Both the position numbers and the translations under genes were made by a program. Shown here piece by piece: positions 232 through 41,265 of a DNA stretch of 64,000 bases (the first letter of the stretch is position 1; each line of letters starts with the position of its first letter). The stretch is taken from positions 3,472,001-3,536,000 of the forward strand of contig NZ_CP095757.1 of assembly GCF_023093535.1 (NCBI RefSeq). Reading direction: 5' to 3'. This DNA is from Halovivax limisalsi (GTDB lineage: Archaea; Halobacteriota; Halobacteria; Halobacteriales; Natrialbaceae). The notes beneath the pieces are model-generated. The model made no database searches. It was not told where the DNA came from and worked only from the letters and a program-made list of their open reading frames with translations.

Positions 232-585
232 TCACTCCAGCCTCCCAGGTGCGGCCACGCAATCCGCACAGATTCGCTTCTCCGACCCCGCGTACCGAGC
301 CGCCAACTGCCCCCGATGCTCCGCCCGGAGCCGCACCCGGTGTTCGTCCGTCGATCCGATTCCGCAGCGCTCGCAGACCACCGCCGACTCGGACTGCTCA
401 CTGGAATGCCTGACCACCGTCAGTTCACCGACGACGGTCTCGGTGGAGCCGAGGGCTCGCCGTCCAGTTCGAAAATCAAGCCTGAATTCGTCGACAGCTG
501 CTGACCGTACGACCGGCGTGCGAGACCGTGTTGTCTCGGTAGTGTGTTCGCAACCGTGGCAACCAAATCGCTCCGCGGCGTGCAA
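232..585 (-). CDS. Possible small zinc-finger protein, start uncertain
   Basis: This minus-strand frame encodes about 117 residues with three CxxC pairs (CHGC, CERC, CADC) separated by an acidic, well-mixed sequence, the style of haloarchaeal small zinc-finger proteins of unknown function. The start is unclear. A strong TATA element (about 683-692) points to an ATG at 662, but that ATG is in another frame; in the zinc-finger frame the first usable codon is a TTG near 585. Either translation starts at the TTG, or there is a frameshift and the gene is broken. I do not assign a function; coding status itself is an inference from the cysteine spacing. Confidence 0.35.
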   Translation of the reverse strand: MHAAERFGCHGCEHTTETTRSRTPVVRSAAVDEFRLDFRTGRRALGSTETVVGELTVVRHSSEQSESAVVCERCGIGSTDEHRVRLRAEHRGQLAARYAGSEKRICADCVAAPGRLE

Positions 586-732
586 GCCACGTCTCGGGTG
601 CCGGTTCCACCCGGGACAATTGCTGCGCCCGTCCCCGCGCGGTCGGTGGGGTTCGTGGCTTCCATTCCGGTGGCAAACGCCAAATATTATATAACTACCG
701 ATGCGTGTGAACGGATGGGCAGGCCAACCCAC

Positions 733-40230: not shown

Positions 40231-40617
40231 CGATACCGCTGCCCACACAGTCGACGGTTAAGAATGCCCCCGTGAACGGCCACGACAGTCCCCTAGGGTC
40301 GCCGTCAATAGCAGGGACCGGACCGGCTTCCGGAAGAGCAATTGCTTCGACTCGTTCGGAACGGCCGGGCCGGAAATGCGAGCGTTCTTCCTACGGAGGG
40401 GCTCGCATTCGATTCTTCGAGAGTTTCGGCCGGCTTCCGATCTTCTGGGCACAATCTGAACACCACCCGGCCGTCGGAGAACGATTCTAAAACCCGCTCT
40501 GATGGACCAGAAGCTCCAAAATTCGTCCCATTAGAGTTAGATATAAGTCACTACTGCGCGTAGCCGATCCGGAAGTCGTCGTCTCCATCGGTCGTCGCCG
40601 GGGGACGTGCGCGACAA

Positions 40618-40766
40618 CGAAAGAGTCACTGACTCTTTCGAGCATCGCGGGAACTTCGTTCCCGCTCAAAAATGTCCCGGGTGTACCAGCACCCGAGACG
40701 GTGGCTTCCGCCCGATTGGGACGAAGCCATGATTCCGTACCGCCCCGCGAGATATAAACGTCTCGC
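40618..40766. repeat. Cluster of consecutive inverted repeats (hairpins)
   Basis: In order: CGAAAGAGTCA-C-TGACTCTTTCG (11-bp perfect dyad, 40618-40640); GCGGGAAC-TTC-GTTCCCGC (8-bp stem, about 40647-40665); CGGGTG-TACCAG-CACCCG (about 40678-40695); GGCTTC...CCC-GATT-GGG...GAAGCC (about 40703-40728); and GCGAGA-TATAAACG-TCTCGC (about 40746-40765). So many stems in 150 bp is not chance-like. Subterminal hairpins of this kind occur at IS200/IS605 ends and in structured RNAs; which applies is open. Confidence 0.6.
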
Positions 40767-41037
40767 AGAGCGCTCACTCGCTCGGTCTCGGTAGCGTCGC
40801 GTTTCGACGCCGTTCTCGGCGTGGGGTCGGCCTCGACAGCGGTGTCACCGTCGAACGGTGGATTGGCGGGAGTTGCCCCACCGCAGGGTGTCGACCGCCG
40901 AGGGCGGCCATTCGGGACGCGACGTATCGCCGACCGGGGCGGTCGTGGCCTCGGCTCGATCGGGATGCGTGCGCGATCGCTTCCAGCCGACGGATGCGAC
41001 GCGGGCACCAACGCTTCCAGTCGCGAACGCGACCCGG

Positions 41038-41154
41038 TCGCGCTCGCCGTTCGCGATCGGGTTCGTCGATCGAACGCGGAACGCGTGAGCGCGCATCGAT
41101 GGGTGACCGAAGCTCACCGTGCACCGAAGGGTCGGTCAGTACAGGAGAAGCACC
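41038..41154. repeat. Diverged dispersed repeat, copy B
   Basis: Partner of 38963-39059 in the same orientation. The GCGCTCGCCGTTCGCGATCG core and the GATCGAACGCGGAA block match copy A with few changes; the two end blocks are further apart here because of about 20 additional bases. Confidence 0.6.
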
Positions 41155-41265
41155 CACCGCTCAGTGCAACTGACCATCGATTCGCGGACCCCAGTTTCGT
41201 GCCGAAAACTGAATCTTGTACCGCGGTTCCGACACTATCAGCAATCTGTCCTGAGGTTGCGAGAA

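Follow-up and report, generated by a model that had tools for sequence, protein, structure and literature searches.

What do five successive hairpins within 150 bp of apparently gene-free haloarchaeal DNA represent? They lie at positions 40618 to 40766 of a window, by which we mean the whole stretch of 64,000 nucleotides analyzed here, from Halovivax limisalsi. A sequence-only reading of this DNA had proposed a structured RNA, the end of a decayed IS200/IS605-type element, or a protein-binding array.

RESULTS

The hairpins are parts of a larger fold

All five stems were found where the sequence-only reading had put them: stems of 11 bp and 8 bp, GGGTG/CACCC, GGCTTC/GAAGCC plus CCC/GGG, and GCGAGA/TCTCGC. 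Its description of the region as lacking a credible protein was right for 40249 to 41265 apart from one frame, a 21-amino-acid frame at 40729 to 40794 that it had missed. Also missed was a 15-bp long-range helix (40571-40585 with 40695-40709) that closes the hairpin array. The AUG that opens the short frame (40729-40731) lies directly 3' of the fourth hairpin. The fold energy of 40560 to 40790 was -108.8 kcal/mol, compared with a mean of -82.2 (standard deviation, 4.6; z = -5.7) for 200 dinucleotide shuffles, none of which was as low; the minus strand of 40600 to 40790 gave a z value of -6.0. The five hairpins are parts of a larger RNA, a three-way junction of the helices P1, P2, and P3, with the following features in the window.

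40515-40989, plus strand: dispersed homologous unit of promoter, RNA, and remnant downstream frame; blastn borders approximate (against G003, G001, G004, and the 2.075-Mb copy of the window's own genome, G000)
40542-40547, plus strand: TATA-like box of the RNA, with the spacing to the RNA start seen in other copies; putative start of transcription downstream
40571-40585, plus strand: 5' strand of P1 and predicted transcript start; all 15 bases pair with 40695-40709, with 3 G-U pairs among them
40602-40606, plus strand: 5' strand of P2, GGGAC; partner 40674-40678; covariation
40618-40640, plus strand: extra hairpin 1, 11 bp, inserted in the P2 loop; present in G003, missing from three orthologous copies
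40647-40665, plus strand: extra hairpin 2, 8 bp, inserted in the P2 loop; among the copies compared, only G003 has it
40674-40678, plus strand: 3' strand of P2, GTCCC; covariation
40679-40694, plus strand: P3 hairpin, GGGTG-TACCAG-CACCC, inside repeat I8 (40674-40699)
40695-40709, plus strand: middle strand, serving as 3' strand of P1 or, alternatively, 5' strand of P4; three-strand covariation
40703-40728, plus strand: P4 hairpin of the predicted alternative state, abutting the AUG; duplex permutation tests, with a weak fixed-register test
40729-40794, plus strand: ORF1, 21 amino acids, MIPYRPARYKRLAERSLARSR; starts at the AUG that P4 would cover; no Cys-rich ORF2 follows
40747-40766, plus strand: P5 hairpin within ORF1, with a TATAAA loop, just after the AUG
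555-664, minus strand: second copy of the RNA in the window, degenerate, with ACG in the AUG position

On the minus strand, the P3 hairpin (40699-40674) also forms a terminator-like site with a run of T residues after it; shuffles averaged 0.6 such sites.

A dispersed RNA family with conserved pairing

The region was searched against the window's own genome, where it had 22 matches, and against 100 relatives, half of which (50) had matches. Most of these spanned window positions 40670 to 40767, and this sequence is thus dispersed rather than lone. The 37 loci compared shared one layout: a TATA-like box, a 5' strand of the GGAAGCCAC type, P2 (GGGGC...GCCCC), P3 (GGGTG-loop-CACCC), a middle strand of the GTGGCTTCC type, a short hairpin, and GAAGCC-AUG. 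In Natrialbaceae a short ORF1 came next, usually with an overlapping or nearby ORF2 carrying CxxC motifs after it. A covariance model (R2) found 31 matches at an E value of ≤0.1 in the own genome, 29 of them at 51 bits or more and 2 weak and antisense. The 29 own copies included the window copy (61.8 bits) and the minus-strand copy at 555 to 664.

The pairing of P1 to P3 was conserved. In a 25-copy alignment (A2), 96.6% of the cells were paired, 6 pairs had changed on both sides, and none of 500 shuffles reached the covariation score. A 91-row alignment (A3), which included distant copies and 2 antisense rows, had 19 of 20 pairs changed on both sides, with 200 such cells versus at most 62 in slid controls; the proportion of paired P3 cells was 99.2% in A2 and 100% in A3. 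Since the 91-row alignment was fitted to the covariance model, the count was repeated on 48 copies from HRAMP loci outside model building, which are relatives of rows used in the models. Here, 17 of 20 pairs had changed on both sides (159 cells; 0 of 500 shuffles). Compensatory stem changes therefore exceeded both shuffles and slid controls, as in RNA families of conserved structure, and the structured RNA proposed for this site is borne out by the two tests suggested with it, namely, that homologous copies exist and that their stems covary.

The window had no Rfam match at the gathering threshold; at an E value of ≤1, five loci gave none over the element. A search with seven loci gave no matches. 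No such element was found in the literature searched, which included the accessible parts of PMC7247131 and PMC2864571. As judged by the literature and Rfam searched, the family is undescribed so far.

Strand and promoter

In 89 copies, with the strand read from the TATA box, the wobble pairs were 58 G-U and no A-C in P1 and 34 G-U and no A-C in P2. Wobbles that are G-U and never A-C in these two helices indicate a plus-strand RNA and disfavor a DNA cruciform, a minus-strand RNA, and the DNA protein-binding array that had been put forward. The counts do not speak against a protein that binds the RNA itself. In the held-out 48-copy set (A5), taken over all three helices, 69 G-U cells stood beside 20 A-C cells.

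In 26 of the 29 own copies, a TATA-like match started 27 to 29 nucleotides (nt) upstream of the RNA. Among other Natrialbaceae, the distance was 29 to 30 nt in 26 of 30 copies and 19 and 21 nt in 2 more, with 2 copies lacking the match; among distant copies, it was 27 to 32 nt in 16 of 30, and 14 had none. This spacing would place the transcription start at the 5' strand.

Two alternative pairings of the middle strand

The middle strand has two complementary partners, the 5' strand (P1) and the bases before the AUG (P4; six bases in the window). Three distant copies have this arrangement with changed letters: AGAAAGACCAG / CTGGTCTTTCT / AAAAGACC-AUG in L181, AGAGACAAGCC / GGTTGTCTCT / GACAACC-AUG in L198, and AGAAACCGC / GCGGTTTCT / GAAACC-AUG in L032. 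Across 26 diverse copies, duplexes of own strands were more stable than those of foreign strands for both P1 (-22.4 versus -14.7 kcal/mol) and P4 (-12.9 versus -8.7 kcal/mol), each with 0 of 20,000 permutations. The 16 held-out copies gave -22.8 versus -16.0 for P1 (0 of 20,000) and -11.2 versus -9.4 for P4 (1 of 20,000). At one position, the three strands covaried among the 89 copies (G/C/G in 59, C/G/C in 8, and A/T/A in 4). When P4 was held in a fixed register, 76.9% of the cells were paired and the covariation score (0.100) was not above that of the slid control (0.126), so that P4 rests on the duplex permutation tests. Two mutually exclusive pairings appear to be conserved, in the sense of complementarity kept in diverged copies rather than of conformations in the cell. 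The P1 state was energetically favored in 28 of 29 own, 27 of 30 other Natrialbaceae, and 29 of 30 distant copies (84 of 89), and the resting state would therefore leave the AUG free.

P5 was present in 28 of 29 own and 27 of 30 other Natrialbaceae copies but in just 20 of the 32 others (arm permutation, 102 of 20,000), and it was therefore rejected as a universal part. A coding explanation for P5 was not supported either, since the entropies of the three codon positions of ORF1 (1.02, 0.98, and 1.04) carry no coding signature. However, at least 7 of the 29 own copies have an ORF1 stop codon that overlaps the start of ORF2 by one base, so that ORF1 may be translated despite the absent codon signature.

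Genes downstream of the leader

Within 450 nt downstream, 26 of the 29 own copies had a Cys-rich ORF, as did 21 of the 30 copies from other Natrialbaceae and 13 of the 30 distant ones, compared with 87 of 3,000 random positions. These values come from a criterion adopted post hoc, because an earlier, stricter Cys-motif criterion (22 of 29, 3 of 30, and 11 of 30, respectively) missed CPxC...CGC proteins. Some copies lack a Cys-rich gene altogether, among them 3 of the 29 own ones. The ORF2 proteins matched no family profile above its cutoff. Two distant leaders precede weakly SWIM-like proteins (PF04434 at 0.037 and 0.0024), and distant leaders often adjoin a divergent winged-helix gene, a related protein of which matches phrog_18890. 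At two loci from different genera (L014, 1252-1323; L021, 1208-1279), the RNA has a tRNA gene some 200 nt away, and an S15 leader lies downstream.

Spread among genomes, plasmids, and viruses

A broadened model (R3) matched 231 of 391 Halobacteria genomes, in 74 of 86 genera. Among 246 genomes of the phylum, a set for which the number outside the class is not given, 20 matched, all in the order of the window's genome. Few candidates were scored per genome, and the copy numbers of the survey are lower bounds; E values of the covariance models are only rough. In the window, R3 placed the match at 40621 to 40731 (39.6 bits), and R2 started it at 40570.

Related leaders also head plasmid and halovirus operons. 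R2 matched directly before the first codon of Halar_0109 on plasmid phalar01 (45.0 bits). Two lower-scoring matches lay on a plasmid of Haloarcula halobia (29.4 bits) and in virus BJ1 (20.0 bits), and all three copies were included in the training of R3. Outside its training set, R3 found Halorubrum tailed virus DL_1.7 together with two nearly identical records (27.7 bits; E = 2.2e-4). Virus Humcor1 was not matched by the model; the same three strands are visible in it by eye. The AUG at the end of the leader is the annotated start in phalar01 (Halar_0109), Humcor1, and DL_1.7. In BJ1, the leader (L206, 131-224) contains the annotated GTG start of ORF7 at locus position 171, and the model puts the AUG at 222, which is probably the true ORF7 start. 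An exact-pattern search of viral contigs gave no matches, and blastn of one distant leader against plasmids and phages gave none; the plasmid and virus copies were found by protein searches instead.

Some neighborhoods had further features. Three RNA copies form a tandem array on one strand within about 3.3 kb (G024:C1:1570916-1574253). One RNA copy is preceded within about 1 kb by a CRISPR array (L003, 390-900; G000, about 134.5-135.1 kb) with the repeat GTTTCAGAAGGACCCTTGTGGGGTTGAAGC; the repeat ends in GGGTTGAAGC, which is similar to the P4 strand in some copies from Natrialbaceae, possibly by chance.

The leader in HRAMP-like operons

In genome G100, the leader heads an operon with genes for a CxxC protein and Cas7-like, RAMP, Cmr3-like, RNase H-like, and HNH proteins, and the BREX genes brxL and pglZ are its neighbors. 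Profile matches were weak for Csm3 (1.1e-5), RAMP (0.011), and Cmr3 (6.9e-5) and clear for HNH and RNase H, and a search by sequence found no PDB relative. We call the operon HRAMP-like on the basis of these weak matches and the description in the accessible part of a review (PMC8730458), not of direct comparison. That part gives HRAMP diverged Cas5 and Cas7 plus nucleases and cites a paper whose title states that HRAMP has no CRISPR array.

The upstream stretches of 60 further Cas7-like genes, none used for the models, contained the RNA in 48 cases at an E value of ≤0.1 and in 43 at <0.001, and all 48 RNAs shared the strand of the Cas7-like gene. For genes near the query, the frequencies were 39 and 38 of 40, respectively; for a more distant Cas7-like subfamily, they were 9 and 5 of 20. 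All 26 matches at an E value of <0.001 in a further 398 kb around known copies were known RNA sites. One HRAMP-like operon (L228, 3396-16928) adjoins the BREX genes brxL and pglZ in a defense island.

The RNA and the HRAMP-like genes are thus physically linked, yet the RNA is not confined to HRAMP, nor mainly found with it. A Cas7-like gene occurred in 101 of the 391 genomes and the RNA in 231; outside the window's family, 65 of the 76 genomes with a Cas7-like gene carried the RNA too. The window's genome had no Cas7-like match at an E value of ≤1e-8 despite its 29 copies, which indicates that the RNA does not need this gene, and G001, G003, and G004 likewise had the RNA and no Cas7-like match at that threshold.

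The window copy

By blastn, the window copy resembles other copies only within about 40515 to 40989, and its flanks are unrelated. The copies in G003, G001, G004, and the own genome (the one at 2.075 Mb) are syntenic with one another and not with the window; because homology is limited to the unit and synteny is not shared, the window copy must have moved or been duplicated. The two extra hairpins occur in only one of those four syntenic copies, that of G003, which also has a frameshift in ORF1. The window copy retains the promoter, P1 to P5, and the AUG, and its frame stops after 21 codons with no Cys-rich ORF following. Since it has just this short frame and lacks a zinc gene, it is probably an orphan of the family that is either decaying or acting as a free RNA.

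DISCUSSION

Most haloarchaeal mRNAs are generally considered leaderless, and hardly any natural regulatory leaders are known in archaea. Our preferred reading, to which we give a probability of roughly 60%, is that the hairpins form part of one copy of a 5' leader RNA whose family extends across the haloarchaea and that this leader is a translational switch. We do not file it as a riboswitch, for which direct binding of a small ligand without protein is a further criterion.

The mechanism that we infer, including transcription, switching in the cell, the ligand, and the direction of control, would run as follows. The RNA would start at its 5' strand, about 29 nt past the TATA box, and fold cotranscriptionally into a compact three-way junction with the long-range helix P1 and the stacked hairpins P2 and P3. 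With P1 closed, the AUG of the first gene would be free; with P1 open, its 3' strand would re-pair with the bases before the AUG (P4) and hide the start. A binder of the junction, most likely the operon's own Cys-rich zinc-type protein or another regulator, could shift the balance between P1 and P4, which would control translation of the downstream gene for a zinc-ribbon or SWIM protein. At HRAMP loci, the whole defense operon might be controlled through coupling.

The leader might work in the style of ribosomal-protein autoregulation, its Cys-rich product binding the junction and repressing its own translation with no small-molecule ligand. This is one form of the preferred reading and not contrary to it, and we find it rather unlikely: most leaders precede Cys-rich products, and widely differing products behind one kind of leader are what a shared RNA-binding fold would lead one to expect, but the downstream proteins include unrelated kinds (SWIM, CxxC ribbons, and some that are neither), which favors a trans regulator or ligand shared by them all. 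Alternatively, the RNA could be primarily a trans-acting, crRNA-like part of HRAMP bound by Cas7/Cas5-like proteins, its leader position being merely its site of transcription. The same-strand position upstream of the Cas7-like gene at 48 of 60 held-out loci (43 at an E value of <0.001), the 65 of 76 Cas7-like genomes outside the window's family that carry the RNA, and the array-less HRAMP with diverged Cas5/Cas7 and nucleases in the accessible part of PMC8730458 would fit such a role. It is nevertheless improbable, given that a Cas7-like match is lacking in the window's genome, with its 29 copies, and also in G001, G003, and G004, that no long hypervariable guide-like stretch was seen in alignment A5, and that all 48 of 48 copies end at an AUG (an end that the model favors). 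More speculatively, and with a low probability in our view, the three-way-junction RNA would be bound in HRAMP, control its own operon, and act in trans, the halovirus operon of leader and SWIM gene would be a mimic or competitor, and the tens of Natrialbaceae modules of RNA and zinc protein, including the window copy, would be stand-alone descendants.

The origin from a decayed IS200/IS605 end or its guide RNA can be practically dismissed. The hairpins are clustered and the copies dispersed, as in such elements, but the RNA precedes genes instead of trailing tnpB. Of three TnpB matches over the cutoff in the genome, none came closer than about 21 kb to one of the 29 copies, and the Y1 transposase had no match; IS200/IS605 ends and omega RNA were rejected on this lack of association of the copies with tnpB or tnpA. 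Within the preferred reading of a leader family, the window copy itself could be a dying duplicate without function, for which we see slightly less than an even chance. The 21-amino-acid frame without ORF2, flanks unlike those of other copies, and a second window copy that has lost its AUG argue for decay, whereas P1 (15 of 15 pairs), P2, P3, and the promoter are all intact and the extra hairpins are common to another species at a different locus.

The family adds to haloarchaeal biology a leader that is absent from Rfam, occurs in 231 of 391 Halobacteria genomes with up to 29 clear copies per genome, and has a fold that amounts to a testable switch. Because it stands first in HRAMP-like operons, it is, in the literature searched, the first candidate RNA for an array-less CRISPR derivative, and its occurrence in operons of haloviruses and plasmids suggests a link between host and virus.

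Among known systems, translational riboswitches and start-masking switches likewise combine a junction with one strand that can enter either an anti-sequestering helix or a hairpin hiding the start. They differ in that here the AUG itself, not a Shine-Dalgarno sequence, would be covered, in an archaeal setting and with a putative ligand; according to the accessible part of a 2021 paper (PMC8241225), the fluoride riboswitch of Thermococcus is the only experimentally determined natural archaeal one. Omega RNAs of IS200/IS605 elements are also rich in hairpins and dispersed, with the tnpB or tnpA association that is missing here. The S15-Halobacteria leader (Rfam RF03143) is likewise a structured haloarchaeal 5' leader with possible binding of its product, but it is a different RNA before different genes, with no overlapping Rfam match. 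HRAMP is related through position, in that the genes for Cas7-like, RAMP, Cmr3-like, RNase H-like, and HNH proteins form an operon behind the leader; the accessible part of PMC8730458 describes HRAMP with no RNA part, and far more genomes carry the RNA than carry the Cas7-like gene.
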